From positions 9,933,501-9,997,500 of the forward strand of contig CM050656.1 in assembly GCA_027574665.1 (NCBI GenBank): 64,000 nucleotides of DNA, given 5' to 3'. This DNA is from Rhynochetos jubatus (Eukaryota; Chordata; Aves; Eurypygiformes; Rhynochetidae). The notes beneath the pieces were generated by a model. The model worked only from the letters and a program-made list of their open reading frames with translations. It was not told the origin of the DNA and searched no databases. Of this stretch, positions 42,201 to 63,872 are shown piece after piece. Both the position numbers and the translations under genes were made by a program. The number at the start of each line of letters is the position of its first letter. Positions within the stretch are counted from its first letter, which is position 1.

Positions 42201-42519
42201 TGTCATCTTCAGCCATGACAAACACGAGCGCTCAGTAAATAATAGCCCTGCCATGTAATGTCATGCCTCTCCCATCTGTTGTAGTAATGACTGTGCCTTG
42301 CTCACCTGCCACCCTCTCCCGGCTGCTGGGTGTGGGCAGCGGCTGAGCCAAGTCAGCCCTTCCCCAGCTGGGGCAGGACCCTTCCCCTCTGACAGCTGAT
42401 GGACTTGGGTTTGGGGTGGGCAGGGCAGCCAGCCCTTTTGCAAGGGAGGAAATCTGCTTGGACACAGGTGGTGGTGGGCAATCCAGCGTGGGACAAAGCC
42501 CTGGGAGCTGTGGAGGGGA

Positions 42520-42603
42520 TTTCTCACCTTCTTCCCTCTTCCTTATTCTCACCTTTTTCCCTTTTTATCTCTTCTCTCTTCTCTTCTCTTTCTATTTCCT
42601 TTG
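42520..42603. repeat. Polypyrimidine (CT-rich) tract
   Basis: A mostly C/T stretch of TTCC, CTTCTC and TCTCTTC words. Simple sequence. Confidence 0.7.
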
Positions 42604-42817
42604 CTGTCCCTGCTGCCACAGTCCCATGCCCCTGTGCTTGGTGCCTGCAGGGCTGTTTGAGCACAGCCTCTCAGCTTTCACTGCAAACCCGTTTCCAAAA
42701 TGCTCTCCAAGCATTGCCTAAGGGACATAACAAAGCTGAAAGAGTTGGAAAAGCTCACCTCAGCAGTTTTTGAAGAGGCTTCCCCTTCTTCCCCAGATCC
42801 TCCTACTAAAGAGCATT

Positions 42818-42862
42818 AAACCCTTTGTGCCTCAGTTTACCCATCTGTATATCTAGATTAAT
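42818..42862 (+). mobile_element. Possible MIR fragment
   Basis: TTGTGCCTCAGTTTACCCAT followed by CTGTATAT resembles the MIR phrase TGTGCCTCAGTTTCCTCATC then TGTAAAAT. Only about 45 bp can be matched. Confidence 0.5.
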
Positions 42863-43643
42863 GACCCACAGCAAACCTGTTGCCATGTGGTGGGTTTTTC
42901 ACACTGATTGGCTGTGAGCATTTAATTCTGCTCCCCAAAAATCCACCTCCTCTCTGAGTCATGAAGAGGAGACATCACTAGAGCAGCTGTTGCTCATCAC
43001 TGCTTAAGTAGCCCGTTTCTCTCCTCCCCACACTGTGCCCATTACCACACCTCAGAGCAGCCCCTTGCAGGGCCTGGAGAGGTAGAGGTATTGCATTGGA
43101 GTTGCAAAGCAGGAATTGATTGCTGGCAGCAATTTTAAAAATTATAATTATTCAATTATACAATTAAATTAAACATTAATAAAAATTAGAATATTTTTTA
43201 AATGTAAAATATTTTAAAATTAAAATAGGGGGGATTTTGAGTGTGTAATGTCCTCAGTCTGAAGTGAAGATGGAGACAGACACTGCTTTTACAAGATGTC
43301 TTTTTTGCTCCCTCCCTTTCCTGCAAAACTTGGGTTACACTGAGTGCGTAAAGGATAGCAGGACGTGGCAGCACTGCTTGCTGTGAAAACTAATAGGGCC
43401 ATGCCTGCTTTCATCAGGAGTGTAATCAGAGCCACGGATAATGTTTTAAAAGGCACAGCAGCTTCAAGTGCAAGCAGGGATTTATTAGTGAAAACGAAAC
43501 CATGCTTGAGCCTTTGCAAGTCTTATTTTAAGAGTCTGAAGGAGAAAGGAACAGGCTGGCTGGCTGGGCAGCCAGGAGGAGAGGCAGCCAGAGCTCTGCT
43601 GCCTAGCAGTGGTGACGACATTGCTGGGCTGCTGTTCTTGCTC

Positions 43644-43790
43644 TGCCACAGGTTGTCTGCACAACCTTGGTCATGTCACTTAACCTCACCATGCTTCAGC
43701 TCTTAGCCTGCACTGGAGCACAAACCCCACTCCTCTACAGCTCTACAGAGAGATTATACTTCTGTATAAATGAGGATCATGCTCCACAGA
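43644..43790 (+). mobile_element. Possible MIR fragment
   Basis: CCTTGGTCATGTCACTTAAC, CTCACCATGCTTCAG and, about 65 bp later, TGTATAAATGAGGATCAT occur in MIR order (CCTTGGGCAAGTCACTTAAC, CTCTGTGCCTCAG, TGTAAAATGGGGATAAT). The gap suggests an insertion or decay. Confidence 0.5.
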
Positions 43791-44884
43791 CACTTCCAGC
43801 CTCTGCAGTCCTTTTGGGAACCCAAGGGAGTGACCAAGGGATCCCACAGGATCCTACAGGTTCAGAGAGCAGCTCTGGGACCTTCTCCCAATCTGGCACT
43901 GCCACGGAACAGCACAACCACTCACAGATGGTGGGGACAGGAGGAGAAAGGGAAAAAACACCCCAGCAGGTGTTCATAGCAAGAAAATGGATGCCCAGGC
44001 TCCCAGGATCTCTGGTTCTGCTACGGACCCAAGGTTTGTCCCATATTTGAGGTCCATGGTTTCTGCTGTCTTGAAAGAGAGGCAGAGCAGTGGCCTGGTG
44101 CTACTGTTGGAGGGCTGAGTTCCCAGTTTGGGCTGGCTCTCAGCATCTCCTGATGCTACTCAATAGACTCAAATATCTCCTCTGTGCTGATGGACAAAGA
44201 ATGTCTCACCAGTGCTCAACCAGGCCGGGGGAGGCAGTGAACACAGCTCTTTGGTGTTTGGGAGAGACCTGAGTATGACCTGTAAGTGCATTTGAAGGCT
44301 GAATTTGCTGCAGGAGGGAAGGAGACTGCTCCTGAGAGCATGACACATTTTTAGGGTCTGTTTCTCCATCCCAAGGACAGTGTGGCATGTCAGCAGGAGT
44401 GAGCTGTGTAGATAAAATAATCCTGCATCTATTTATCTCTTTTTGAAAGAGAGGAAAACATGTAAAGTGAGCAGTTCTGTTTGGAAAAAGCTTGTTGGAG
44501 AGGCTTTCTTTGCCTCAGATGCCCTTGACATCTGCACGCATACGAAACCCTTCATAAGGTTCTCATTTCCTCTTTACCTTTTATATATAGCCCATAATAA
44601 GATCCCTAATTTTAATGGGCTGTATGGATCTCACTAGCAGGCTCCAGCAGAGAGGTTTTGACTTCCTGTTTCAACAGGATCCGCGATGGAGTTTTTGGTC
44701 CCTTGCTCGGCTCCACTGCAGGTGCTGGTAGCATTTCTGCAGCCACCTTCACCAAAGCCTTTCCTACCTGCCGGGAGATGCCACACCGTAGGTGCCCCAT
44801 TTAGTGTTTGTGGGAAGTCAACCCTCTCCCTCAAGTGCTTATGAAGTGGTACAAGAAAAATTAGCACTTCTTTGCCAAATTGGA

Positions 44885-45095
44885 AGATGTGGAGGGAGCT
44901 GGGCTTGTTCGGCCAGAGAAGGCTAACGGGTGGTTGCGGTTAAAACGGAGCCACACTCTCCTGGAGGTGCATGGGAAACAATGGACACCAGGCACAGCAA
45001 GAGAAATTCCACCCAAATACTAGGAAAATAATTCTTAGTGAGACTAGTGACAAGAGAAAAGCACATGGAAGGGTGACTTCCCTGGGCCAATTCTC
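44885..45095 (+). mobile_element. CR1: Degenerate CR1 LINE fragment, sense
   Basis: It begins GGAGCTGGGCTTGTTCGGCC then AGAGAAGGCT, the familiar CR1 phrase for the 3' region. GGAGCCACACTCT, CAATGGACACC, AAATTCCACCCAAATACTAG and AAAATAATTCTTAGTGAGAC follow in the expected CR1 order. The end is blurred by divergence. Confidence 0.75.
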
Positions 45096-45750
45096 TAGAG
45101 CAAAGAAGAGCCTAAAGATGTGACACCCAGGGCGGCTGCAAGTGGTCTCAGCAGGGCACCATACCAGAGCTGGATCTGTGTTAAAACCCACTTACTGGCT
45201 TGGGTGAGAGGCAGGGGAGAGCATAACCTGGCCCAAAAAGTGTTACAGTACCCCTTGCCTGGGGCACAGCTCAACCTGGATGTCAGAAGCCTGGCTGGGA
45301 TCTCGGCTGGAGAAGGCAGCGCACAGGAGCTGATGGAGCCGTTACACCAGACCAGGGAAGGCAGAGCCAAGCAGTGAGGACACACAGAGCACGTGTCAGA
45401 GGATCTGGGCTGGTTCCTGACAGCTACTTTCTCTCAGAGCTCCTGGACGGGAGACAAAACATGATTTCTTGCTCCTTCCACTCAAAGGCGGCTGTGAAAG
45501 TCTGATTTATGCTGAACACTCTGGAAAAGACAAAAGCTTGGCTGTGGAACCAAGTTTAGCTCCCAGCCAGGAAAACCTTGTATGGGATCAACAAGTTTTA
45601 ACCATGCAAATCAAATTTGGGTCCAAACAGAGCCCTGTTTCACGACTTCTGCCTCTCCCTTCCTCGCTGCATAAGGTCAGGCTACCTCCCCCTTGAACAA
45701 GCACCAACATCCATTCCCAGTGGCAGAGGCAGACTGGGATGTTGTAGACA

Positions 45751-45806
45751 ACTTCTCCTCCTTTTCTTTTTCCCTTTCCCTTTCCTTTTCCCTTCCCTTC
45801 TTCTCC
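45751..45806. repeat. Polypyrimidine (CCCTTT)n-like tract
   Basis: CCTTTT, CCCTTT and CCCTTC words tandemly repeated for about 55 bp. Read on the minus strand this produces a Lys/Glu/Gly-rich spurious frame. Confidence 0.75.
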
Positions 45807-46457
45807 AAGAGAAGAGACAAACATGTCACAGTTCCATACATTCTCAGCTGCCAAAATGTACTGGAAGAGGTCCACCTGCGTGTGAGTCTGTCACCAAAAG
45901 CTGTGGCTGAGCATGGCCTCATACTATGTGACCCCAGGCAGCACAAAGGAGTGCTTAGGGCACCGGAGAGAAGGAATTCCTTGGCTGCATTGCCAGCAGT
46001 GAAGGTGGGCAGATGATCATCTCTATCTCTGCCTTTGTTTCCCCAGGTGAATGCAGCAGACCAAAGGCCACTGTATGTCCTTTTTCCCCCAAATCCACCG
46101 TCTCCCGGACAAACCTGAAAATGTGCTGTGGGAGCAATCTTTGGACATTGTTTGGGGTGTCTCCAGTCACAGCAAGAGCAAATCCTCACCCTGTGCTCAT
46201 ACAAGTGAGACTGATTCAACAGCAGTACTGACATACCTTGGAGAGGTGAGATCTCCCATCCAGGCCTGCTCACAGGGCAAGAGTCCAAGGGAGTCAGGAG
46301 ACCCAGAACCTGCTGTCTAAGCTGGGATCTTCTCTGAATTTTGTGCCCAACAATCTGGCTTGCAAGGCAGGTACAACAGGGCCTGCACCTGGACGTCCAC
46401 CCAAGGTGCACAAGGACAGAAGGAGAGGCACCGAACACAAGTTGCAGAAGGGAAAGC

Positions 46458-46665
46458 TTTGATCAGATATTAGGGGAAAAATTCATCCTGAGAATGGTTA
46501 AACACAGGAGACCAGAGAGGTGGGGGAATCTCCATCTTTGAAGACATTCAAAACTTGGCTGAAAAAGCCCTGGGCAACCTGGTTGGTCTAAATTAGCTCT
46601 GCCTTGAGAGCTGTTGGACCAGAGACATCCAGAGGTTCCTGCCAACCTAAATTATCCTGTGACCT
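46458..46665 (+). mobile_element. CR1: Degenerate CR1 LINE fragment, sense, 3' end
   Basis: In CR1 order it shows CAGAGAGGTGGGGGAATCTC, ATCTTTGAAGACATTCAAAA, CCTGGGCAACCTGGTTGGTC, GCTGTTGGACCAGAGACATC and AGAGGTTCCTGCCAACCTAA. It ends near a relic of the terminal ATTCTRTGA words (ATTATCCTGTGACC). This copy is older than the 6.4 kb one. Confidence 0.85.
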
Positions 46666-47642
46666 ACATCCACAGCACTACCCAAGATGCTCTTGCATCA
46701 TCTAGAATTCAATAAGTCCATCTGGGCTTCTGCTTCTAAATCAGCAGGATCCTAAATCTCCCTTATGATTTAATCCCTTAATTCATTTGCCATAATCCTG
46801 TAGTCTGTGGCTGGAGGAAAAGGAAACGACACAGAAAAGCAAACAGAGAAACGCAACCAGTGCCCCTGAGAATAGTATATTACTCCTCTTCTTTCCTGTT
46901 TGCCTTCCTGCCGTTCTGCTTCCATGAAAATTTGTGGGATTTCATCCAAAGCTCCAGTATCTCCTCTCCAGTGGTGTCTGGGGATGGACGCTTAGAAAGA
47001 AAATACCAGAAGCAGTGAGCACAGAACGATCTGCTCCCTGCCAACCTCTGGCAGCTGAAGTTTCAAGGACACCTGATGCTAAAGGCCACATCCAAACCCG
47101 AGCGTTTAGTCGTTACCATCTGAGAAGCTGCCAGTGGAGTGAGAGCCACAGCAGAGTGAGTTTTACAGGGTGCCCTGGGGAAAGGTATTTCCTCTTCTTC
47201 ATGTGAAACAGGCTGGTCCTTTCACCGTGCACCTCCCTGTGCCCAGCCCCAACTCCTGGAGTGGATACTGGAAAGGAACCAGAATCACTTGTAGACCTGC
47301 TTTGCGCTGTGAGCATTGCATCCAACCCACATAATACAGAGAGCCCGAGCGTTTCATCACCCGTCCCCCTTTTGTCTTCTTCCCTGTGTCCCTGATCCCG
47401 CAGTGATCTCGTGAATCCATTAATAAAAGCTGTCTCCGGGATAAAACACAAGCCCCCTTCCCTTGACAGGCAGTGCTGGGGTGCTTCTCAGCAGCGCTGT
47501 GACTCAGCCCCAGCCGTTGTTTGCCTGCCATGTGCCCCTGCAGCATGCGTTCGGGTTGAAGAGCCCTTTGGAGACAATTTATCCACCAAGACAGAACTAC
47601 TCTACACTTTGCTCTTCCACTGTGCTGCCAAGGGAGAGCTCC

Positions 47643-47811
47643 CGCATGCATGCACACACGCACCTGCACACCTGCACACACCTGTACATGTACACACCTG
47701 TCCGCACATGCACATGCACACCTGTGCACACACACACCTGCACACACACACGCACATGCCTGTGCACACACACACACCTGCACAAACACATACACACCTG
47801 CGCACACGCAG
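47643..47811. repeat. CA/TG-rich imperfect microsatellite
   Basis: About 170 bp of alternating purine-pyrimidine sequence is built from CACA, GCACACCTG and CATGCA words on the plus strand. The imperfect CACACCTG-type period gives open frames rich in His, Thr and Cys on both strands, which are not genes. Alternating CA/TG and CG steps favour Z-DNA. Confidence 0.85.
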
Positions 47812-48693
47812 AGCAGAGCCTGCAGTCGGACCAACGGAAGCAAGCAACCTGCTGCTGTTTTAAAACACTGTGCTGGCAATGGTGCTTTCCTGGGGGTGCT
47901 GAGCACCCTGGTTCAGAGTGCTGGGAGGCAGGAGGTGAGCGCTGGGCATGTTCTGTGCTCAAAGGGGACACCAGGCAGTGGGTCCTGCCAGCTCACAATT
48001 GTGGGGGAGGAATGATAAGGATGCTGCAGTCAAGGACGTGGCCCAACCCCACGTGCGTACCCACCGTTCAATTGTGGGTGTGTGCACCGACAAGGTGAGG
48101 GCAGCTTTATACCAGAGCTTTTTCCTTCTCCGAGCCCCTCGCTTTCAATAGCCCCCGCCCCTCTGCTCCACCCCACGCGGCACCAAGGCATCGATGCTGC
48201 CTCAGCAAAGGTCATCTGAAACGTGGTTCTCTGAAGAGCTGGATGTGTGTCCACACATTCTGTTTCTTCAGAGGCATGAGTGAACTGAGTGCAGCTCTAT
48301 GGAAGAAAATAAACTACACACATACTCACCGATATTGCCCACTAATGAAGCATATGGTGGTTGTAGGAACCCCATTCTGTGGTGTTCCTGGGTACCCAAA
48401 GTTCACGCAGAAGGCATCAGCTGCGAGATGAGAGCGAGTGGATGCCGCTCCTGCCCCCAGGCTGACTTGCAGGGACGGCTTAGAAAAGATGTTGGTGAAG
48501 TTTGGAAAAGAAGCAGAAATATGTATTTCCCCAATAATCTGAAAACTTCAATAAATGTTTTCCCTCAGTAGGACGTAGCTGAGGAATCTGGGGACCGTTG
48601 CTGGAGCCAGGCGCTCTGAGAGGAGAAAGCAAAAAGCCAGTCCAAGTGCAACAACTGCCAGGACAATAAAGGGATCTGAAGGGGTTCAAGGAC

Positions 48694-48706
48694 GGGGGGG
48701 GGGGGG
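48694..48706. repeat. Poly-G run (13 G)
   Basis: A short G homopolymer in otherwise ordinary intergenic sequence. Confidence 0.75.
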
Positions 48707-51544
48707 AGCGGGTTGTTTCTTCAGTGGAGTTTCTTGATTAATATTTACATGTCAGAACCAGCAAAGCACACCTCCAGATCACGCACGGGATCTTTTTCTC
48801 CTTACTTGGGCAACAGAGCATATAGGCAGGACAATTGTGCAAACAAAGATGCGTGCCAAGCCCACCTCACCGAAGGGAAGAAATAAAAATACCAGTTATT
48901 TAAAACACGTGTATTAACAGAGGGGTTCACCTCTCCCCTGCCTTTGTGCTCTGCTGACATCGTGGAAGCAGATGAAAAACCTCACTGGAGCATCAGGCTG
49001 ACCCCACGCCCCTGGTCTCCCTGGGCCACCCATTGGCACCCACACCATCACCCACACTGTCACACACACCTCTGCCCCAGCAAGGTCCTGGGGAGTAAGA
49101 TGCAGGTACAAGGCGAGCTGGTTGAAATTCCCACCTCCTCCCTGTCATGGAGAAGTACAGCTCTGATGTAAATTGGGGGGCAAGGTGGATGGAGTGTCAT
49201 GATATCCTGATGTGGGAATGCTTCTTGTGTGCCTGAGCCTCATCTGCACATGGTTTGCAGCATCTCCTGGGTACAGCGATGGATGACAGCCTCAAAGGGA
49301 CAGGATCCAGCCAAATCAACTTTGTGCCAGCAAGGCTGTAACTCTTTCCCCTTCCCATGTCCCTCTCCCCACCCTCCCTCCCTGCCTCCCCTTTTCAAGT
49401 GCATTCAAAAGAGCTCAGCCCAAATGTCCTCAATTTGGGGTTGAAAGCAGCATTCTCAGCATTTGTGCTTTGTAAGTGGGATGGAGGGATGCAGAACAGC
49501 AAAGAGCTGGTGATATATGGCCCAGCTTTGCACCAGGAGGCCAAATCCTGCAGGGAGGTGCCCCGGGGCCCTCCACTCCCCAAGCAATTAAGGTGACATG
49601 ATCTGGGTGCTTCAGCATGCAGCGAGGAGGGTGATGCAGGGCCCTCGGGGAGATAACGGGAGCCAGAAGGTCTTATCAACTTCTTGGAGGGCAGAGTCAA
49701 GCCCTTGAAATGAAAGCCCTTGAGGGAGTGGAGAGGATCTTCCCTCAAGTGTCAGGCGCATTTCAGCAGTTTATAAACACTGATGTCTTCCTTCTGCCGC
49801 GCTCGGCCTCGCAGCACCAACAGCCCAGCTGCGTCCTCAGACCCAGTCCTGTCAGAGCTGGGTGCCTGAGCTTGACTTGGCCAGGGGAAGGCAGGATCAG
49901 ACCTGGGAGGGGGGAGGGGGTGTTTCTAGAGGCATCTTCAGCTGCCATTGCTTGGTTCAGCCTTCTCAGGATTGAGCTACAGGTTTTTTCCCTGCACAGA
50001 CCAAAGAAGGCATTAAAGAGCCCACCTTTCCAGGAGCAGGACAAGGCAGTCACTTGGCTGGAAAGGGAGCAGAATCCAGCCCCTTCCTCTCCCCCTCCCT
50101 GTTTCTCTCCTGCACATCCCACTGCTGAGAGCGCTGTCTTGCTGCAGAGGCTCCCCGGAGATGAGCTGAGCTGTGAACCCTAATAACGGGAGAGGGGACA
50201 ACGGCATCAAACCCTGGGGGCTGATCCCAGCCACACTGTGGGCTCCCCAGTGCATCCATACTGGAGACCAAACACACAGAGTGGGTTCAGTAGCCTCATA
50301 CCCCAGAAGAGATGGGGCTCTTCCCAGGTCTCCGCTCCCCATGCCCACCCAGCCCTTTCCCAGCTGATGCTCTGCTGAGTGGGAACCCCCAGGGCGATGC
50401 AGCCCCCCACAGACCTGCTCACCCAGCACAGCCAGGCTAACACCATCCCTCTGCTGTGGCACACTCAAACCTGCCGAGACTTACAGAGGGTGGGAAAGGG
50501 GATGGGGTGTCCCAGGGTGGCCAGTGAGCCCCCACAGATTAAGGGGTGGGTTAGACCTGGTCTCACCTTTGCAAGGAACAGGAGGATTTTAGCAGCACAC
50601 CACCTTCTGCTGGCTGGGCTCCCGGCTGGTAAAAGGGTCTGTATTGAGAAAGAGGGTAAACAGAAAGCTCCTAGGGCTCTTTCTCACAGACTGATGAGAG
50701 GGGTAAACACAGGAGTTTTCCTGAACAGCCCAAATACTCCCCTTGGGGCCCCTGGGCAGGAGATGAGTTTGCTGCTGGTTGCAGTCAACATCCAGGCTGC
50801 AACTGCTGTTCTACATTAGAAAGGGAGCTGAGTCCCCTGCCTTCCTCCCCTTCCCCTCCAGCTTCTGTCACCTGTGAAGGGTGGAGGAGGGTGAATTGGG
50901 AAGGAACTAAACTCAGCTGAGTTCTCCCAGCCCTGCTATGAGGCACCTAGCGCTGGTGATGCTGGTTTCCAATGGAATCCCACTGGGTTTCCCCTGGATC
51001 CACCTCCCGTTTAAAGTAGAGGGGTGACTGCCCCAAAAGGCATGTGAAGTTTTGAGGGTTGCTGGATTCGTCCAGTCCTAGGAACAAAAGGAGCATCCTG
51101 AGATGGAGACTTGCGTCAAATCCCCCAAATTTGGGGGTGTGCTTAGTAGAGACCCCCAGAACCACTCAGGGATGGGCAGTGTGGCTGGGCTTTCAGGAGA
51201 GCAGCTGGAAGGTGGCAACACAGAGGGGGTGAGATGGGGGAAAATGCATTTGCCAGCAATGTCCTCCCGATGGACACCGGTCAGCCCTCCCCACGCCAGT
51301 TCCTGCCTCTGCCCCCGGGTTCCTCCTAACGAGGTTTCCAGCTCGGCTGAACCCCTGCGTTGCTTTCAGGACTGCAACCGTCCAGGACTGAACGGGGCTG
51401 GGGAGGGGGGAAATCGCCGTCCCCATCCCCTGATTTCTCCTCCCCAGTTTTATCGAGGGTTCAGGTTACATCAAACAAACGCGAAAGCGCAGTAGAATTT
51501 GGCGAGGGGATGCAGAAAATATTGTCACCGGTCCTAGAAAGACC

Positions 51545-52239: not shown

Positions 52240-52450
52240 GCGGCGGAGGCAGCTGCACCGAGGTATCATCAGTATAATTGGAAGGGTCACATGTTAAACC
52301 CTCGCTGTTGTTCGCGGTAATGTAGCTGTGTCCCTCGGTTGCACATTTACCGATTTCTCTGAAACCAACCATTGTCACAAGGTTCACTCCAGGAGGAGTG
52401 ATCCAATGGGTTGCCACGGCAACTATAATGACATTAAAATAGAGGCGGCA
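52240..52450. promoter_or_regulatory. Candidate regulatory block with CCAAT box and palindromic X-box
   Basis: A low-CpG, mixed-composition block sits inside a CpG-rich region. It contains CCAAT at 52403-52407 and, directly after it, GTTGCCACGGCAAC at 52410-52423. That palindrome is a near-perfect match to the RFX X-box (GTTGCCATGGCAAC, one centre mismatch). An ATAATGACATTAAAAT homeodomain/TALE-like stretch follows. An E-box CAGCTG lies near 52250. A composite CCAAT/X-box is typical of promoters and enhancers, so this could be a lncRNA promoter or FOXD2 enhancer. Confidence 0.45.
52410..52423. promoter_or_regulatory. Palindromic RFX X-box
   Basis: The 14-mer GTTGCCACGGCAAC has two GTTGCC half sites in inverted orientation with no spacer. 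This is the high-affinity arrangement bound by RFX-family winged-helix proteins. The motif is visible directly; occupancy is inference. Confidence 0.6.
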
Positions 52451-53432
52451 GCCGCCGCCCCCCATCCCCGGGCCCAGCCCTCCCTCCCCTCGTGCTTCAT
52501 CCTTCCTTAAAATCAGCAGCCTGGCAAACCCCCGCACCTTTCCCGTCGGGGCAGCCCGGGAAATAACACCGGTACCCAGGTGCCAACACAGTGTGTGGGG
52601 GGGTGATGGTGGTGTTTTATTTAAACTTTCCCGGGGAAAGCGGCCAGGGGATAACGCCCCAAACGCGGTGGGAGCAGCGCGGAGCTGCCCCCCGCTCCCG
52701 CGGAAGGTGAAATTGACCAATTCTGGTCAGTTTCCAGGCCGGGCCCGCGGGAAAAGGGCGCAGGCGGCCGGGCTGCGGGAGAGGGAAGGAGCGAGAGTCG
52801 ATCCCTGCCGGGAGCAGGGAAAACGGGACAAAGCTCTGAGTTATAAAGCCCCCGCCGAGGCACCTGTGGGTTGGGCGGTGAGACCTCCTCCCTCGGCCCG
52901 GCCCCGCGCTGGAAAGCAGCTTCTCGCCACTTGGTTTTCGGGAAAACGCTCGTTTCCGATTGATTTGCCTTCAGCATTTCTCATCGGCGCTGCTACGCCG
53001 CTTTCAGCATTTTTATTTTTCCCCTCGAAACTTGGGAAGACAAAAGGTGTTTTAAAAAGGGACCCGTGTTTCCTATTATCACAAGACACCCTTCACTCTC
53101 GATGAGTATTTCCCATCTGTTCTGTGCACATTAAAAAGAAAAAAAAAAAAAAGCTGCATCCAAAGAATACTGTGAAAAGCAAAAAGAAAATTCTGGGGCC
53201 ATCGACTGTAATATCAACTGGATCTGGCGAAGGGGCTCCAATGTGTGTGTTTTCCATATGGGAGAACGTACTGCCCGTCTTTAGTCGCCGGCAGCCGGTA
53301 GCAGTGCCTGAAATTGGGCTCTCCGGGATTTCAGCGATGCTTTCCTGAATCTATTTCCCGATTTCTAAGCGCAGCCAGAAAACGAGTCATTTCTATCAAT
53401 TTCTCGCCATTTTTTTCTTCCACGGGAGCCCA

Positions 53433-53492
53433 CGGGCTTGGGGCGCCAAGTTGTATCTTATTTAATAAAATAATAAAATGCGAACTGGTCCC
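53433..53492. repeat. Paired 60-bp element, copy A
   Basis: This copy shares 54 of 60 bases with copy B at 56552-56611, in the same orientation and without gaps. It starts CGGGCTTGGGGC, has an AT-rich core with ATCTTATTTAATAAAATAAT and ends in GGTCCC. The middle 27 bases (53454-53480) are identical in both copies, although both sit in CpG-rich DNA that otherwise does not align. Such retention suggests an ancient duplicated cis-element. The core has HOX/CDX-like TTTATT and TTTAAT words and, on the plus strand, two overlapping AATAAA hexamers. Confidence 0.8.
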
Positions 53493-56400
53493 TCGGGCAA
53501 GAGCGGAGGGGAAAGAGCAGACAGCTCCGCTCAGAGACGTGGTTTCGTTTCCTCCACCAAAACGTGCCCGACACCTGCCTGCGGCAGGGATAAATCCCCA
53601 CTCCGGACAGAACCCCCAGGTGCCCACGGCTGGCAGCGCCAAAAAATAAATTAAAAAAAGGGGTGGGGGAAGGATTCGGCACAACCCGAACCGGAGCCGC
53701 CCGCAGCCGGTTCACACGCGGTTTGCGGCGGCGGAGCGGTTTCCTCCAGACGGCGGAGCTGGCGGCTCCGACATCCGCACCGGACTGTCCACGACGAAAA
53801 TCCTCCGAGAGACCCGGGCCAGACTGAGGGGGGGAGGCCGGGCATCCCAAACGGAGCACCCGTCGCGGGAAGGGGCCAGACGCGCTGCGATACAGACGGC
53901 GGGGCCCGGCGCTCTGGGGATGCTGGGTCTGGGGGCACCGCTTGGCACCGGCCTCCCTGAGGGGCTGCGCGACCCTCCGGAGCCCCTCGCACATAACCTC
54001 TGCAACCGCGGTGCTGCCCCCGGGAGGGGGAACACCCTATTCCTTGTGCCACCCACCTCTCAGGAGAAATGGAGAGAGGGGAACACGGCACTCCCTACCC
54101 CGCAGCCTGGCCGCAAGTTCCCCACCTCCGGGTACCGCTGGCAAACGCACTTGGGCTGGCAGGGGGTGGGGGGCACGACAGCCGGGGTGGGCGGTTTCGC
54201 CAGCTGCGGTTCCCCGAGGGAACCCGAGGGTGAGGTCTCCCCCCAGGAGCTGGGGCGGGGAAGAGCGGCCGGGATAGGGAGAAGGACCGGTCGGAGCCGC
54301 GGGAGAGACGGAGAGGCGGCCGCGGGTGGGTCTCCCCATCCCGCAGGGCTAAGGGGGGGTCCCGGCCCCCAACCACAACTCCAGCTCCTTGGGGCAGAGC
54401 ATAGAGAGGGTGGGACCCTTCGCGGTGCGGCGGGAGGGGAGCCCCGGGGCGAGGGGACGCTGCCGGGGGTGCAGCCGGGTCTCAACTCGCCGCAGCTGCC
54501 GGGAGGCCAGAAATGCCCTTTTCGAGCATGTCCCGGGCTCAAGAGCCGTCAGAAACGTCTTTCTGAAGTGATCCTCTTGGCGGGGGCTTATTGAAAGAGA
54601 TACACAGAGCTGGAGCATGCCCTAGAAGACATGGGAGCGTTGTGGGGCAGGGGAGAAAATTAAATTAAAACCGAACTGAACAGAAGAGGGGAAGAGAGAG
54701 AAAGGTGGGGAAAGAAATTATCCTCCTTGTGAAACGCGTCGGGCTTCTCCGGAGCAACTGCAGAAGGGAGGCCTTTCCACCAGGGTGGATAAATTTACTC
54801 GTGTCCCACATGACCGAGGGTGGGGGACCCGGGCGGGAGGGGGAAAGAGAAAGGTCATGGGACTGGGATTTGGGTTGTAAGTCACAGAGGAGACGTGGAT
54901 TTCAGTGCCGGGATCCGCGTTAGGTGGCCGCGGCCTCGGGTTTTGCAAGAGAAGGAATTAAATAGGAAAAAAGGGGGAAAAAGTGGGGGGAAAGGGCATT
55001 TCAGAAACAATCCCCCTAAGACCTCAGGGAGTTAGCGGTGGGAAGATGCATTTGGGGGACACAGATCCAGGAGAGCGCCCCAAGGAGACCCTGCTCGCCT
55101 AGGGAAGGGGCTGCCCCCCACATCCCTTCTGGGCTGTGCTGCACCCCGTGTGGGCTCGGAGAGCTCCCGCCCGGCCTCGGCTCTCGGCCGAGCCCTGCCC
55201 GCTCCTTTTGTGGCCTCTATTTTGTGGCCACGACTCTCTCCTGGGAAGAGGAGATCCCAAGTGGGAAGAGGGGGGAGCACTGCCCCAGCCAGCCGCTTCC
55301 CATCTCCCTCCTCTCGCCCCCACGCACCCTGCCAGGACCTGCCGCGGAAGGGGGGAGCCGCAGTCCGAGGCGAGGGGGGTCTGGCTGGACCCCGGCATTT
55401 TTTAACCCCATCCCCAGAAGGGGGAATTTTTTCCTTTTCCACTTATTTTGCGGGGTCCGGCCCGCTGAAGCCGGGGGAGGGGGGGGGGCCTAACACCGTT
55501 CCGCTCCCAACGCGTGTAGGGTTTCCTACACCCGGGTTCTTGTCCTGTGTTCCACGCCCCCCCTCGCTCAGGGTTGATGGGGAGGCACCATGGGGGGGAC
55601 CCCAGGTGATCTCGTCCCGGTCGGGGGAAAAATTCCCACGGATTTTGCAAGGAATCTGGCTGGAATTAAAGGCGATCGTGTGCCCCGCAGACGGCTCTCG
55701 CTGCCGAGGAATGGGGGGAGGGCGGGGGGGGAGTGGGGGCTCGTTTAGGTTACACGGGCTTTACGGGCACTCTCCGCTCCCCTCCGCCGGTGAGGAAACG
55801 TGGAGTACCTGGGAATTTTTGCAAGAGTTAAAGGAATCGGCCGGTGTTGGTTTAACCCGCCTCAAAGCCCCGGTGCTAACGAGAGAGGAATTAATTTCAC
55901 TTAAAAAGAGAGCGAAAGCGGGGAAATCGAAATCTCGCCGAAACGGGCAAGGACTGCCCCGAAAAAAAGCTTCCCTGGCACCCTGCGATATGGAGCCCGA
56001 CCTTCGATACCCAGAAAGGATCGGGGGGTTGGGGGAAAAACACCAGCGAATCGGTAAATTGAAAGATCCCGATGCACGACCGCGAAGCCTTCCCTGCGGG
56101 AACCACCACACGAACTCCCTACACCCCCCGGGCTCCCGCCCGACCTCTCCGCGGGGACATTATCTCCCTTGCAGGTTTTCGTTCGGGTTGAGGAGACCTG
56201 ATTTGGCACACGGAGCAATGAACGATGACAAGTCACTCCACATCCATATCCACGTATCTAATCTACCGGGATCCCCCAATTGGGGGGAGGGATGCGGGCA
56301 GCCAGGAAGCGAGGCATCCCGAGCCTTTCCCCGCCGGGCCGGACTCCGGGATGCTCGGGGCCGGCTGCCCAGCGGGACCGGACCGGGAGGGAGAGCCCCT

Positions 56401-56551
56401 TCCCGGCGGCCGAATCCCGGGACGGTCCACCCGAGGAGGTCATTAGCATGTGAATGATGAGGAATGGTTGGAAAGTTGCGATCAAACCCTGCCGCGAGAG
56501 GTTGGGGTTTTTTTCTGCCGTCGTGGATCGCAGCGTCACCTGTTGCTGCCG

Positions 56552-56611
56552 CGGGCTTGGGGCACCAAGTCGCATCTTATTTAATAAAATAATAAAATGT
56601 GGACGGGTCCC
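56552..56611. repeat. Paired 60-bp element, copy B
   Basis: This is the second copy of the element at 53433-53492, 3.1 kb away in direct orientation. The six differences from copy A all lie outside the AT-rich core. No similarity longer than scattered words was found in the flanks, apart from a short match of the ACNGAACCCCC type about 110-125 bp downstream of both copies. Confidence 0.8.
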
Positions 56612-56808
56612 GCACGGGAGCCGGGCCCCATCTGCGCCCGGGGGGGAGTGGGGACCGGCACACGCTCGCCCCTACAACCCTGCGTGGGCAAGGGACGCCG
56701 CCTCCCGCACGGAACCCCCGGTAAACGCACCGACGTGTCGGTGAAAAGCGGGGTGTACAGGGATGCGCTGCAGGCCGGGGTACTGGGCTCCGGGAAACGC
56801 GCCCTGAG

Positions 56809-56849
56809 CTGCCCTGCAGCCCACCAGGCTGCCCTGCAGCCCACCAGGC
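56809..56849. repeat. 20-bp tandem duplication in CpG-rich DNA
   Basis: The unit CTGCCCTGCAGCCCACCAGG occurs twice head to tail with no mismatch. Confidence 0.85.
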
Positions 56850-57051
56850 ACAAGCAGGGGAAGCGCCGAGCGGGGGGGACACGGGGACACGGCCGGTGTC
56901 TCCCGTGGTTCAAAGGAGGGGAGACCTCCCACACGTTGCGGCCGGACGAGCCGGGCCCCAGGGCTGGACAGAACTGGAAACCTCCTGGAGAGAGCGGGAG
57001 AGCAGCCCTTGATGGAGCCGAGGCGAAGCGGGTGAGAGTGGAGGGACCGAC

Positions 57052-57505
57052 AAGGAGAGAAAAAGGGAGGGAGGGAGGAAGAGGGAAAGAAGAAGAGGAA
57101 AAAAAAAAAAAAAGAAAGAAAATAAAAAAGAGAGAAAAAGAACGATTAAAATAGGGGGAGAGAGAGAGAAATTAAATAGAAGAAGAAAGAAGAGAAAAAT
57201 AGAAGAGAGAAAAAGAAAGCAGAAAAGAGGGAGAAAGAGAGGTAAAGCTAAGGAGGGAGAGAATAAGAGAGAAAAGGGAGAAAAACAAAGAGGGATAAAG
57301 GGAAAAAGAAACAGGTAAATAGAAGAGTGAAAGGGAGAGAAAGGACGGAGAAAAAGAAAGAACAAAAGCAGGGAAGAAAACAAGAAAGAAAGCTAGAAAG
57401 GAAAGCAAGAAAGAAAAGAGAGAGAATGAGAAAAGAGAAAGGAAAATAGAGAAAGAAAGAGGACGAGAAAGAGAAGAAGCGAGGAAGAGAAGGAAAAAGG
57501 AGAGA
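57052..57505. repeat. Polypurine tract of about 450 bp
   Basis: The plus strand is almost entirely A and G (GAAA, GGAG, AGAGAG words) for about 450 bp, with only a handful of pyrimidines. The minus strand therefore yields spurious Phe/Leu/Ser-rich open frames. Such tracts can form triplex (H-DNA) and often cause assembly and polymerase errors. Confidence 0.85.
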
Positions 57506-59949
57506 TGAGTGCTGGCCCGGGAGGCGAGGAGAGAGCGCGGGTCCGGCCCCTCATCTCGCCAGACAGACAGACGGAGGAGCGAGTGCAGGGCCCTGACCTA
57601 CCGCGAACATCTCGAGGAGGATTTCAAAAAGCACCAAATTAATTTCCAAGGCAATTTTCCTGCAGCTGAGTCGGCTGCGACAGCTCCTCCCGCCCTCGGA
57701 AAATGTTGGTTTGGGTTTTTTTGTTTTGTTTTGTTTTTTAAACTCGTTTCTCTACACTCCGTGCCGGGAAAGGAAAGAAACGAAAGGGAAAATGGGGAGG
57801 GAAAGAAGATGCTGGCGCGTAGTTATTTTCCAAAGTTACAAGGCAGGAAAGTGTTTTCAGGTCGGACACTGGGGCACAGGGAAACTGGGCGTTATTATTG
57901 AAACCTAAATCCACCGTGAAAACGGGAGTTTCTGCGCAGTCACAGGGAAGGGCCAGAGCAGGCCCGGGGGAAGGGCCGAGGTATTGAAAAAGATGCTCTT
58001 GATGTTTAAAGGTGGTTTCTATAATCCAGGTTGATTTATTTTTGTGTGGGGCTGCGCGGAACTAGAAAGAGAAAACCAAAAAGCTACCGGAGAAAGGAAT
58101 AAGATCTTGACCTTTCCTAATTCTCCAAATCGGCAGTAATGGAAAGCAGAAAGTGCCAGGGGAGAAAGAAGGAGGCGAGGGCCGAGCGGGCGGTGCAGCG
58201 GGGCCGGCCGGGCCGGAGTCACGCATCCCACACCCCGCAGCCGGCGGGTCGGAGCCCGGCTGGAGAGAGAAGGGCCACTCGGTCCCTTCCTCGGAACCCT
58301 CTCTGCTTAACAGGGGCTTAGTTAAACGAAAACAGAGAAAAAGGAATTGTGTCCGTCCCCGCTCCCACCCGCCGCGGTCCCGACGGGGATATTCCGTAGC
58401 GGGGATCGTTTTATCCCGCTCCGATAAAATCCGAGGAGAAAACCCCGTTTTCCGCCTCACCCGGGCTGTGCACACACGGAAAACCGCCGCGGTGTAAATA
58501 CTCCGAGCGCTCCACGTTTTTGCTAACAATCCCTTCATCTGACATATAGGAAGGAGAGGAGTGGGGGCACGTTAAAAAAAAAAAATCAGCTCCACAGATG
58601 TCTGACCAAAGCCAAAGTAAGGCGGAGAAATCCGCATCCCCCCGACCCCCTCGGAATCAGCCGCCGAGCCCAGCCCCGGCGCGAAAGGGAGAAGGGACAA
58701 AAAACGCCAAAGGATCGGGCCCGTGGCCGGAGCGGGGTGGTCGCCCGCCCGGCTTTGCCCGGGGTGTACCGCTGGTAAAACAACCACTGAAACCAACCCC
58801 GAGAACCAGGAGGATTCGCCTACGGACGAGAGGGAAGGGAAATGCCGGGTCGCCTTTTTGGCCAGGGACTCCCAAGCAGCGACTGCAACAGCTAATTATT
58901 TTCCTTTCAGTGCTCGGTTATTGCTGGTGTCCTCCCCGCCTCCCCCACCCCCCAATAAATAAATAAAACCCTCCTTTAGGCAGCGAAGCGTGAAAAATTA
59001 TCCTCGCTGAACGCTTAAAAATAATGTCCCGTGAAGATCGGGGCTGCGGAGCCAGCCAGCCCCGTAATTAGGAGCCATTATCCGTCCTCCCTCGCCAAGA
59101 TTCCGCGTTAACCCCCCGAGCCGAGCCCGGGCCAGGGGTTCCCGACCCTAGAGGAGCCCCCCGCCCCGGTGGGAGGGAGCCGGTTCCCGGGGGGGTCTCC
59201 GCCGATGATCCCCAAGCGACGCAGATATTTGCAGGCGGCGTGAGTTCGACCGGGACACTGCAAGAGCTCGGGTGCTTGAAGGGAATTTAAGGGATGGGAA
59301 AAATCTCGACTTAGTGCCGCTCGGGGGTCTTGCCCCCAAAATGACCAGCGGCGCCGGCGCTCGCAGGCCCGGGAGAGCCGAGCCCAGCCCGCCCGGCCCT
59401 TCCTGCGGGGGGGTACCGCGGCTAAGAGGGGCAAATCCCCCCGGCTCCCAAATCAGCTCAGCTTCAATCCCGACCGGCGACCGCGTCTTAAAACCTCGCA
59501 AGGCAAAAGAAGGGGAACGGAGCCGGGGCTCTGTCCCAGCCCCAGAAAGCCCCGAGCCCCCTCCCCTGAGCGCGTGGGGGAAGGGATCTCTGCAAAGAAA
59601 CACTGCTTCCCTGCAGAGAGGACCACCCCCCCCTCCATCCCTCCAAACCCTGAGACCACCAACTTGGAGAACCCCCTGCTCCCCGCGGGGGCTGCAGGGG
59701 CCAGACGCACTAGTTCACCCCCGCGGGCACCGGCTGCTGGTTCCTATCGGCTCCTGGCATCTTTGGATCATTTTTCTCCCGCACTTCGCAAACAAACAAG
59801 CTCCCCCTCCCCCCAAAAAAATTAAAAATCGCTACTTTATATTAAAATAACCCGTCCCCCACCGCTTATTCCAGGCACACAACCACCACCCAGCCTCGCT
59901 GCACATCGCTTTCTTCCTTGGGATGCCGTCTCCTCAAAGCAGGCTGGGT

Positions 59950-60330
59950 TATTAAAGGAGGCTGAACAAAGATAGCCCCGAGAGCAGCTATCAGCGCATT
60001 TTAACTTCATCAAAGACTTCGGGGGAGAGGGAGAGGAGGGGTCTGGCACCTTCTAGTAATGAGCTTGTCAGGAACACCCCTGCCAGAGCAATTGAACAAT
60101 TTGCACACAAGCAAAAGAAAAGGAGCGGGGAGGGAGGGAGGAAGGGGAAATGCTACAAAAGCCCCTTCAATTTCCAACCATGTGCTTGGCAATCTGGAAA
60201 ATAGATTCATTGGCCTCCTCTCTTCTCCCATGTCGAGTCTTGTAGCCCCTTTTGTAGGAGCTGGACATGAAAGGGAGACAACCAAGTGCCGGACACGAAG
60301 ATCGCTTTTCAAAAGCAAATGTGTGTGAAG
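59950..60330. promoter_or_regulatory. Candidate FOXD2-proximal enhancer block
   Basis: A moderate-GC, repeat-free block lies between CpG-rich segments. It has a SOX-like GAACAAAG next to a GATA-type AGATAG (near 59965-59980), CTATCA, an ATTGAACAATTTG stretch near 60091 and AAGCAAATG near 60315. The dense, varied motif content with low CpG resembles conserved enhancers. Conservation is not measurable here. Confidence 0.3.
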
Positions 60331-60619
60331 GCGAGATGTGAGACCGCTCGCTGCGGGGAGGCGGCACGTTCAGGAACAACATCAACAAACTGCGCGGAGG
60401 TTCGAGGTGGCACAGACTGGGGCAGAGGAGAAGGAGTGGGATAAAAAGGGAGGGGGGAGGAAGAGAAAAGAAAGGCCGACACCATCACCACCCCCCCGGC
60501 GCACACCGCCCGGCTCCTGCCCGCGCCCCGGCGGGCCCCGCACAAAGCCCTGCTCGCTCGGGGACCGGCTCCGTCCCCCGCTCCCTGCCTCGTAAGCCTC
60601 TTGGGGTTGGTTTTTTTTT

Positions 60620-60640
60620 GGGGGGGGGTGGGTGGGTGGG
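60620..60640 (+). other. G-quadruplex motif
   Basis: A run of nine G is followed by three GGG tracts, each separated by a single T. Four G-tracts with one-base loops is the most stable parallel quadruplex pattern. It lies on the plus strand (template strand for a read-through FOXD2 transcript), 1.9 kb past the stop codon. Confidence 0.6.
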
Positions 60641-60793
60641 TGTCTTTTTCTTCTTCAGCACGGGCAGAAAGGCCTCGATTCCTTAGATCAGTGTCCCTGC
60701 CAACGAACAAACCGAAGAGCCGCGTTTGGTCCCTGAAATAAATAAATAGAAGGGGAGGGAGAAGTTTGGAGAAGAAGGGAGCGCTTAAAGATG

Positions 60794-60799
60794 TTTATT
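60794..60799 (-). terminator. Possible distal poly(A) signal AATAAA
   Basis: A second minus-strand AATAAA (context GTAAATAAACATC) lies 650 bp beyond the first. It could serve a longer FOXD2 3' UTR, but a lone hexamer in AT-rich sequence is weak evidence. Confidence 0.25.
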
Positions 60800-61160
60800 T
60801 ACTTTGTAAGTTGTTGCAAAATTTAGGCGGAGATCAAGTTTCATTCGGTCATTCAAATGCTTCAGGCCCAAGGGGAACGTGTGTGCGGAGGGGGGGGGGA
60901 AACCCTCCAACTTATTTTCTCATGTGTCAACTTTTCCAAACAAAATAAAAGGAGGCGGAGGAGGGAGAGAAAGGAGAACCTTTCTCCCGGCCCCCACTTC
61001 CCTCCCTCTGGAAACAGGCAGTTTGGTGTTGGGTTGTTTTGGTTGTTTTGGTTTTTTGTTTTTTTTTTTTTAGGGGGGGACACACCAAAAAACAAATACA
61101 AAAATTAAAATTAACAACAACAAAAATCCGGGGGGTCCTTTCCCTTGCCGGCCCTCGGGG

Positions 61161-61178
61161 CCCCCCCCCCCCCCCCCC
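61161..61178. repeat. Poly-C run (18 C) next to GGGG
   Basis: A homopolymer of 18 C follows directly after GGGG in a CpG-rich block. Its length is probably unreliable in any assembly. Confidence 0.8.
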
Positions 61179-61424
61179 ACCTGTGGCAGCCTGCAGCGGT
61201 GGGCAGGGGAGGAGGCGCGGAGCAGCCCCGCGCAAAGCTGCGCGCCCGGCCGCGGAGGGAAAGGCTCAGCCCCGCCGGCTTCGGGCGGCGAAACTCCGCG
61301 ACCGGCCGAGTGTCGCCGGCCCGAGGGTGGGAAATACTCGCTGTCCCGAGGCCCGAGCGGGGCTCTCGGCTCTCAGCCTGACAAAGGACATCGCAAAGAA
61401 CGATTTGGATTATTACTATTTTTT

Positions 61425-62525
61425 TTTAACCAGGTCACAAACATTTATTAATTTACACCAACGGTGGACAAAATTCTGTTGCCTTTTCCACATCAAATTA
61501 TTCACAGATTCTCTCAATAAAATAGATATGACGGATGCACAACCAGTGAAGAGTTAACTGGACTCCGCTCATTAGCTCCCGAATAATCTATATACAAATA
61601 ATTATCATTACACCAAAAAACCCACGCACGGAGAGGGTGGGAAAACGGGGATTAAAAAAAAAAAAAAAAAAAAAACAACAAAACCAAAAACAAATAAACA
61701 GTACGGGAATTCTCCAAACTTCCTGACGGATCGGATTTTCTTTTAAACGTGCATTTGCATGTCTCATTGGAAAAAGAAAAAAAAAAAAAGAAAAATATAA
61801 ACCGCAGTCCTGAGTTTCACCGACTTTTCTTCTTCTTAAAAATAAAGAAACCCTAAACAGTGCCTTTTAAAGCCAAACCCGAAGCTTCAAAGAAACTAAA
61901 AATAAGATCGAACCATTAAAACATTTTCTTTGAGAGCGGGGAGAGACAGACACACATGGCAAAACCGCCCGGGAGAGAGACTCGCAGGAATGAAAAACGG
62001 GCTCGCTGCGACCGGGGCCGCCTGCAACTCCCCCGGCCGTTTTCCCAGGCCATTTGAGGGGAACCCCCGCGGCAAAACCCGCACCTCTCAAAGGAAACAT
62101 TTCCGACCCTAAAACCGCTTCTTTCCGAACACCCCCCCTCCGCACACACACACTCTCCTCGCCCCCTGCAAGACGTTGCGTGTTCAACCAGCCCCAGGTC
62201 CCAGCTTCTGTTACGGCCGCTTTATAAATACGCTTTGGCTCTTGCAGGACGAAATCGTGTTATTCTTTCCCCCCACCCCATCTCTCTCTTTTTTTTTTTT
62301 TTTTCTCCCGAGCAAAGAGACAACAAACGGATCTGGATGCCACAGAGCCTGGAAATAAAATAAAAATTTAAAAAAAAAATATTTCCTACCTTAAAACACA
62401 ACAGGAGGAGATGGGGGGGACGGGGGAGAGGGAAGGGGAGCAGTTTCGGAGGAGGGGAGAGAGCTGGGAAGGGGCCGTTTGCTTCGCGACTCTCCCCCCC
62501 TCCCTCCCCCCCCCCCCAGCACACT
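61425..62525 (-). other. FOXD2: FOXD2 3' untranslated region (inferred)
   Basis: This runs from just after the TAA stop (62526-62528) to the expected cleavage zone beyond the AATAAA at 61444-61449. Read in the gene's direction, it has a poly-A stretch from a plus-strand T-run near 62290, U-rich tracts (plus-strand A-runs near 61655-61675 and 61780) and an AT-rich end. No other canonical AATAAA occurs between the stop and 61444. The boundary is inferred from signals, not from transcript data. Confidence 0.65.
61444..61449 (-). terminator. FOXD2: Poly(A) signal AATAAA of FOXD2
   Basis: On the minus strand the site reads AATTAATAAATGTTTGTGAC. The canonical hexamer is followed within a few bases by a GU-rich TGTTTGTG, as expected of a downstream element. 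It lies about 1.08 kb after the stop codon. Confidence 0.7.
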
Positions 62526-63872
62526 TTAAAAATGACAGCTGCTCAGGGTTGTGATTTTACTGGAAAAGTTCTGGGCCGGCTGCAGGAGCGGCTCGTGTGC
62601 CAGGCTGACCTGGGGCTGTGCCGGGGCCAAGGCGGGGCTGAGCACGGCCAGGACCTGCGCCGGGGGGCCCGCCTGGCCGGCGGGGTAGGGCGCGGCGGGC
62701 GCGGCGCTGGGGTTGGTGCTGGGCGGCGGGGGCACGGCCCCCCCGATGATGTTGTCTATGGAAAAAGAGGGCCGGGAGGGGTGGTTGGTGGTGCCGCCGC
62801 CGCCGCTGCCGCCGCCGGCGGGCGTGGGGTCCGGCTTCAGGGTCTGGAGGAGGGCGGCGGGCAGGGCGGTGGGGCTCAGCTGGGGGTGGTAGAAGGACTT
62901 CCTGCAGTTCAGCTCGCCGCCCAGGAAGGAGGGCAGCCCCGAGGCGGCGGAGAAGACGGAGGCGGCGGCGGGAGGCGGCGGAGCCGGTAACGGGCAGTGC
63001 GGCGCCGGGAAGGGGAAGGCGCCCGCGGCGCCGCCGCCTCCGCCGCCGGGGTGGTGGTGGTGGTGGTGGGGGTAGCCTTGGAGCTGCAGGCCGTAGTTGT
63101 AGCCGTAGGGTCCGTAGGCGAAGCCGGGCAGGAAGGCGGCGGGGTCGGCGGCCCCGGCCCGCAGCAGCAGCTCGGGGTGCGGCGGGTGCAGCTGCTGCTG
63201 CCGCTTGAAGCGCTTCCTCCGGCGCAGGAAGCTCCCGTTGTCGAACATGTCGGCGGACTCGGGGTCCAGCGTCCAGTAGTTGCCCTTGCCCGGGTTGCCG
63301 GGCTCCCGGGGGATCTTGACGAAGCAGTCGTTGAGGGAAAGGTTGTGGCGGATGCTGTTCTGCCAGGCGGGGAACTTCTCCCGGTAGTAGGGGAAGCGCC
63401 CGCTGATGAACTCGCAGATCTCGCTCAGCGTCAGCCGCTTCTTGGGGCTCTGCAGGATGGCCATGGTGATGAGGGCGATGTAGGAGTAGGGCGGCTTCAC
63501 CAGCGGGTTCTTCCCCCCCGCGCCGCCGCTGCCGCCGCCCGCCGGCGCCTTCTCCCCGGGCGCGGCGCCGCGGGCGCACGCCGGCTCCGAGCCGCCGGCG
63601 GGGGAGAGCCGCTCCGGGGACCCCCCCATGCGCGCCTTGGCGGCCCCGCTCCGCGGCAGGGCGAGCCCCAACGGATCCCCGCCGTCCTCCTCGTCCTCCT
63701 CCTCGTCGTCGTCGTCGTCCTCCTCCTCCTCGTCCTCGCTGTACTTGCCCCCATCCTGGGGCGGGCCCACCACGTCGATATCCGCGTCCTCCACCTCGGA
63801 GAGCGGCTCTTCCTCCGGGGAGCGCTCGGACATGATCCCGCAGCCGCCGCCGCCGCTGCTGCCCAAAGTCAT
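62526..63872 (-). CDS. FOXD2: Forkhead box protein D2 (FOXD2), complete single-exon CDS
   Basis: This frame encodes a 448-residue forkhead transcription factor that would act in the nucleus. The start MTLGS and the DADIDVVG motif (residues 29-36) are typical of FOXD proteins. An acidic run of Glu and Asp follows at about 46-63. The forkhead domain spans about 122-224, from KPPYSYIAL through [20 protein letters not shown] (helix 3 recognition region) to the basic end [10 protein letters not shown]. Next come the PELLLR...[10 protein letters not shown] segment, a His run (269-274), low-complexity Gly/Pro/Ala regions and an Eh1-like motif, FSIDNIIGG (370-378), expected to bind Groucho/TLE. The protein ends TTLSSCHF. 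The MTLGS...IMS start, PELLLR/AFLPGF block and CHF end fit FOXD2 rather than FOXD1, FOXD3 or FOXD4. The start has A at -3. It is slightly shorter than human FOXD2 (about 495 residues), through shorter low-complexity tracts. FOXD2 is known in kidney, paraxial mesoderm and craniofacial development. The single exon is normal for the FOXD family. Confidence 0.95.
62739..62768 (-). other. FOXD2: Eh1-like Groucho/TLE-interaction motif in FOXD2
   Basis: Residues 369-378 read [10 protein letters not shown], preceded by RP. This fits the engrailed-homology-1 pattern F-x-I-x-x-I-I that FOXD proteins use to recruit Groucho co-repressors. It is one of the few ordered motifs in the low-complexity C-terminal half. 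Confidence 0.75.
63051..63068 (-). repeat. FOXD2: Histidine-codon (CAC) run inside FOXD2
   Basis: Six consecutive CAC codons encode His 269-274, followed directly by Pro and a Gly run. On the plus strand this is a GTG triplet repeat. It is a low-complexity tract with no assigned role, and polyHis tracts can promote nuclear-speckle targeting in some transcription factors. Confidence 0.7.
63213..63509 (-). other. FOXD2: Forkhead (winged-helix) DNA-binding domain of FOXD2
   Basis: These codons encode residues 122-220. The invariant [10 protein letters not shown] start, the [18 protein letters not shown] helix region, the [13 protein letters not shown] recognition helix and the [10 protein letters not shown] wing are all intact with no frame break. 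The variants [17 protein letters not shown] and DPESADMF fit FOXD1/FOXD2 and differ from FOXD3. Confidence 0.95.
63684..63735 (-). repeat. FOXD2: Acidic-codon trinucleotide tract inside FOXD2
   Basis: GAG/GAC/GAA triplets encode the Glu/Asp run at about residues 46-63. On the plus strand this appears as tcc/tcg triplets. An acidic N-terminal stretch is usual in FOXD proteins, but the triplet purity makes its length likely to vary between individuals or species. Confidence 0.7.

Follow-up and report, generated by a model that had tools for sequence, protein, structure and literature searches.

A 63-bp element is present in two direct copies in the CpG-rich DNA on the 3′ side of FOXD2 (table 1). 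The copies lie in the same orientation, 3119 bases apart from start to start, and are identical at 56 of their 63 bases (88.9%). The duplication is real and statistically secure. The E-value of the pair is 5.7e-18 against the window, that is, the whole 64-kb stretch of DNA that was analyzed (C11:9933501-9997500), and 1.1e-14 and 9.1e-15 in two genome-wide searches; a chance match is therefore excluded. The ungapped match of 54/60 that the earlier note had placed at 53433-53492 and 56552-56611 was confirmed, and the true match is three bases longer on the left. In an ungapped scan of the window for direct, as distinct from inverted, matches at offsets of at least 60 bases, 3119 is the sole offset reaching 46/60.

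The element may be a locally duplicated cis-regulatory module of the FOXD2 domain, with a core of putative homeodomain-binding sites. This reading is held tentatively, somewhat short of an even chance, and by judgement it is narrowly preferred to a neutral micro-duplication.

Table 1. Coordinates of the duplicated element and related features (positions in the window)
Feature	Position	Strand	Remarks
Copy 1 of 63-bp element	53430..53492	+	direct repeat, 56/63 to copy 2
Copy 2 of 63-bp element	56549..56611	+	direct repeat, 56/63 to copy 1
26-base identical core, copy 1 (ATCTTATTTAATAAAATAATAAAATG)	53455..53480	.	longest identical run
26-base identical core, copy 2	56574..56599	.	longest identical run
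Two abutting octamers TAATAAAA, copy 1	53463..53478 (starts 53463, 53471)	+	exact match; putative posterior-HOX/CDX-like
Two abutting octamers TAATAAAA, copy 2	56582..56597 (starts 56582, 56590)	+	exact match; putative posterior-HOX/CDX-like
CpG-rich domain with both copies, 3′ side of FOXD2	52500..62000	.	CpG o/e 0.49-1.12
FOXD2 coding sequence, presumed target	62526..63872	-	single-exon 448-aa ORF with forkhead domain

Copy number and genomic setting

The host genome (1.33 Gb in 148 contigs) was searched with different parts of the element. The 100-bp query (E ≤ 1e-3) returned two matches, both copies of the pair, and an 81-bp query from copy 2, at a threshold as loose as E ≤ 10, returned copy 2 itself and copy 1. 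The left half, a pattern of 27 letters in which three mismatches were tolerated, is found at two places (control: none), and the 23-letter core has two exact matches. When up to three mismatches are allowed in this core, 64 + 71 = 135 matches are obtained vs 50 + 63 = 113 for the reversed control, which is mostly background and therefore no sign of a wider family. The two-copy result is strong, if short of absolute, as the genome DNA search skips very common words. The many genome-wide copies by which the earlier note would have been refuted were not found, and the element is no ordinary repeat. As expected, the exact pattern has no match in the viral and prokaryote contigs scanned.

Similar pairs were sought in a background sample of 53 out of 60 loci (186,077 bases), the seven excluded loci being those which contain the element or FOXD2. 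Direct pairs that reach 46/60 and are separated by 200 bases or more occur at 5 of the 53 loci (L007, L009, L033, L049, and L052; best 55/60), and three of these five (all other than L007 and L009) look tandem or low-complexity by eye. Spacings of 3.1 kb are barely sampled by this comparison, since all but three loci are about 3 kb long.

The presumed target gene carries a PF00250 match at C11:9996743-9996997, which is the forkhead domain of FOXD2. The names FOXD2 and FOXD3 are our assignments by family resemblance; FOXD2 and the FOXD3-like gene share 86% DNA identity over 423 bp of the coding region. Because the FOXD2 ORF is on the minus strand, the copies are placed on the 3′ side of the gene, at distances of 5.9 to 9.1 kb to the stop codon. 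A second forkhead gene is located about 17 kb past FOXD2. We take it to be FOXE-like, which fits the human FOXE3-FOXD2 order.

Neither the 20 kb around FOXD3 (C11:1475000-1494999) nor the 10 kb that adjoin the window on its FOXE3 side (C11:9997501-10007500) contain a copy. In both regions the best ungapped match is 30-32/63 and the best local match 21-23 bits, in a comparison run with either copy and confined to these regions, the FOXD1 and FOXD4 loci lying outside it. The result at FOXD3 is an indication that no ancient paralogous element exists there. Visual inspection of the 23 forkhead matches (150 of 413 candidates scored) did not reveal FOXD1. A separate stretch of 45 bases 3′ of FOXD2 (60495-60539) is 84% identical to a place at the FOXD3 locus (E 4.4e-6). 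This match is likely due to low complexity, because 59362-59407 matches the same place at FOXD3 at 78%.

The DNA that surrounds both copies is continuously rich in CpG. Measured in steps of 500 bases, the whole stretch between 52.5 and 62 kb stays within the CpG o/e range of table 1, and the value for 62-64 kb is 0.87. Between 52500 and 57000 the CpG o/e is 0.78 with TG/CA o/e of 0.89/0.87, in contrast to 0.23 and 1.37/1.37 at 40000-50000, outside the domain. These ratios suggest that the domain is of the developmental type and has probably been largely spared germ-line methylation. The steps which hold copy 1 (53001-53500) and copy 2 (56501-57000) show CpG o/e of 0.88 and 0.80 and GC contents of 0.44 and 0.67, respectively. 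The earlier description of CpG-rich DNA beside FOXD2 agrees with these values and with the position of the ORF, whereas the different CpG-rich block assigned to each copy proved to be one and the same domain.

Extent and age of the duplication

The similarity ends at the borders of the element. Among random regional pairs, 328/883 score at least as well as the left flanks at 100 bp and 190/852 at 300 bp; for the right flanks the respective counts are 111/883 and 75/852. The flanks are thus at random level, as had been claimed for the surrounding DNA. A genome search (E ≤ 1) with the adjoining blocks (52980-53429 and 56180-56548) returned no match other than the blocks themselves. A larger duplication with decayed flanks was rejected, the flank signal being not above that of random pairs and the adjoining blocks being single copy. 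The present-day duplicated unit is about 63 bp.

The flanks probably differ because just these ~63 bp were copied. If so, they were never alike, their dissimilarity is uninformative on age, and the main argument for an old duplication is removed. The premise that a recent duplication leaves similar flanks holds only if flanks are copied; the blocks next to the element each occur once in the genome.

The seven differences between the copies are unevenly distributed: 5 affect the 12 positions that belong to a CpG in one or both copies, and 2 affect the remaining 51 (Fisher P 0.002). Four of the five differences at CpG positions are CpG transitions. The AT-rich core was correctly reported as identical, the longest identical run being the 26 bases of ATCTTATTTAATAAAATAATAAAATG. 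However, when seven differences are placed at random, a run of at least 26 bases arises in 14.7% of the trials, and in 37% when the split between CpG and non-CpG positions is kept. The identity of the core alone is consequently no evidence of selection, and an old duplication kept by selection, as proposed originally, is not established: its flank argument falls and the identical run is unremarkable.

If the avian mutation rate is taken as 1.9e-9 per site per year, the non-CpG divergence translates to an age of ~11 Myr (upper bound 39 Myr). The estimate shifts to 20 Myr (upper bound 74 Myr) with a rate of 1e-9 and to 7 Myr (upper bound 25 Myr) with one of 3e-9.

These results suit a neutral and fairly recent dispersed micro-duplication, in which ~63 bp were copied to a site 3.1 kb away and both copies have been drifting since. 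This is a substantial possibility, ranked next after the regulatory module. The copying may perhaps have proceeded through template switching during repair, with the AT-rich stretch helping as a breakable site. The single-copy flanks without residual homology, the concentration of the differences at CpG positions, the age estimated from the avian rate, and the unremarkable length of the identical run are all in its favor. In addition, the 10-mer CACGGGAGCC is present on the left border of copy 1 (53421-53430) and one base to the right of copy 2 (56613-56622). A word of this length is common to 8 of 4466 random flank pairs, in a test that was one of four flank comparisons and whose left flank reached three bases into the element. 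The shared word could be a remnant of the copying or a coincidence.

On the other hand, the TG/CA o/e of 0.87-0.89, compared with 1.37 outside, shows no CpG decay. CpG mutability should be modest here, since the FOXD2 domain lacks such decay, and differences concentrated at CpG positions are thus not readily attributed to methylation-driven mutation. The contrast between CpG and non-CpG positions may instead reflect constraint on the CpG-free core. Moreover, a neutral event would have happened to pick up a piece whose AT-rich run is among the most conspicuous in the domain.

Core motifs and possible action on FOXD2

The core is arranged in the order TTATT-TAATAAAA-TAATAAAA-TG, and abutting TAATAAAA pairs are found in the two cores only, on either strand of the 64-kb window. 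We take TAATAAAA to be a putative posterior-HOX/CDX site. On the plus strand, each core also holds two AATAAA hexamers. The 22-base A/T run lies wholly inside the copied piece, and between 50 and 62 kb the only longer one is a poly-A-type run at 61651. A random 63-mer of the 9.5-kb domain holds such a run with a probability of ~0.4% (42/9500, a post hoc estimate).

The optimal sites for HOXB13 and CDX2 are given as CAATAAA and TCGTAAA in the respective study (PMC5896879). The AATAAA(A) stretch is common to the TAATAAAA octamers and the first of these optima, but TAATAAA is one base off CAATAAA, differing in the first base, and it is absent from the main text of that study. As motif content, the HOX/CDX-type sites and AATAAA hexamers that the earlier note proposed are both present.

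In the preferred reading, a bare piece of ~63 bp would have been copied once to a site 3.1 kb away, and its working part would be the invariant AT-rich core, with the two abutting TAATAAAA octamers and the overlapping TTATTTAATAA. Such a core could offer two same-facing homeodomain sites of the posterior-HOX/CDX type within GC-rich and probably unmethylated DNA. Two of them in one CpG-island domain, as a homotypic pair, would raise the local occupancy. The pair might then switch or hold FOXD2 in the manner of poised enhancers, where a factor-binding core is combined with an orphan CpG island. Binding, action on FOXD2, and upkeep by selection are inferred here.

Counted in favor of this regulatory module are the two-copy result of the searches in the 1.33-Gb genome, the conspicuous A/T run that it contains, the likeness of TAATAAA to the HOXB13 optimum, the CpG islands at known poised enhancers, and the CpG and TG/CA ratios, which are marks of developmental DNA unmethylated in the germ line. 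Counted against it are the non-significant identity of the core (P 0.147 or 0.37) and the 2/51 differences outside CpG, which suit a young neutral copy, as well as the FOXD3 locus devoid of a copy and the core without a wider family.

Known systems resemble the pair in part. Conservation between species is the defining property of the duplicated conserved non-coding elements (dCNEs) of vertebrates, which are sited near paralogous genes (PMC2781166). Like a dCNE, the present element is a short non-coding sequence in two related copies near a developmental transcription-factor gene. Unlike dCNEs, however, both copies are placed in one locus: the 20 kb around FOXD3 contain none, and the genome searches lead to the FOXD2 pair only.

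The paralogous CNE of HOTAIR and HOXD11 is a 32-nt sequence whose copies belong to the HoxC and HoxD clusters; every jawed vertebrate examined is reported to have two of them, with the exception of teleosts and birds (PMC7139118). It is also short and duplicated with limited flank homology, and its copies are reported to carry compensatory mutations. Its copies are distributed in separate Hox clusters, whereas those of the present element share a locus.

Poised enhancers of the mouse depend on orphan CpG islands and those of chicken are close to CpG islands (PMC8285398). The FOXD2 pair similarly combines a putative factor-binding core with CpG-rich DNA off the promoter of a developmental gene, where the non-promoter status rests on the distance to FOXD2. 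Poised enhancers are identified by H3K27me3 together with ATAC/p300 signals, whereas the present pair is likened to them by its sequence.

Among the matches listed in the literature search, no FOXD2-linked duplicated element was found, and the core as a literal string has no occurrence in the text searched. The gene foxd2 is named once, in a table of gene examples (PMC11034925). The lncRNA FOXD2-AS is included among positionally conserved lncRNAs (PMC5853149), and the duplication and loss of CNEs have been modelled (PMC4008492); in the parts accessible, neither bears directly on the element.

A stronger form of the preferred reading would make the pair ancient and selected: identical homeodomain cores, 3.1 kb apart in a Polycomb-type CpG domain of FOXD2, would act as a homotypic two-point switch or tether, with the doubling in cis itself conserved. 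This form is unlikely. If both copies were conserved, they would constitute a clean natural case of a short core that occurs twice in one developmental CpG domain. Their small size would allow each copy to be deleted in turn, as a test of why vertebrates keep redundant regulatory modules. If the second copy is young and neutral, the pair is an ordinary local micro-duplication, which warns against equating shared sequence with selection.

Transcript-level readings and other features of the domain

The readings that involve an RNA hairpin, poly(A) signals, or a transposon are weaker. In the first, each copy would form a plus-strand hairpin in a non-coding transcript antisense to FOXD2. RNAalifold predicts a 17-pair hairpin common to both copies on this strand, with a stem of UYGYAU / AUGYGR and a 9-base AU loop, and a standard pair is kept at 5/6 of the paired differences in the fold of copy 1 and at 4/5 in that of copy 2. 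However, this number of plus-strand pairs survives in 39% of the sets of random substitutions, and 4.4% or 18.5% of the trials attain the alifold energy, depending on the starting copy. Folding is ordinary compared with shuffles (z of -0.96 and -0.71 on the plus strand, -0.60 and -1.65 on the minus strand), and pairing on the minus strand is kept at 2/4 differences. No Rfam family matches the 64-kb window, and the invariant part spans the loop, unlike the arm of a microRNA. A structured RNA is accordingly quite improbable.

Slightly less probable still are paired poly(A) signals, by which the two plus-strand AATAAA hexamers of each core would end transcripts headed towards FOXD2 from the other side. 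No G/T-rich downstream element is visible by eye after either copy (GAACTGGTCCC and GGACGGGTCCC), and the match spans 28 bases ahead of the A/T run, needless for a poly(A) signal. The relic of an interspersed repeat, which a short, AT-rich, and dispersed element might recall, is least credible of all and largely refuted, as many genome copies are expected of such a family and the search at E ≤ 10 and that of the left half with up to three mismatches found the same two places.

Two other stretches of the CpG domain deserve mention. About 500 bases at 57000-57510 are nearly all purine (GA-rich) on the plus strand, with a GC skew of 0.755 and an AT skew of 0.849 at 57000-57499, and their composition makes them a candidate triplex or R-loop former. 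A block at 52240-52460 appears by eye to be CNE-like. It contains the near-palindrome GTTGCCACGGCAAC at 52410-52423, followed by ATAATGACATTAAAATAG; the former resembles, in our view, an RFX X-box, and the block could represent a separate regulatory element 3′ of FOXD2.
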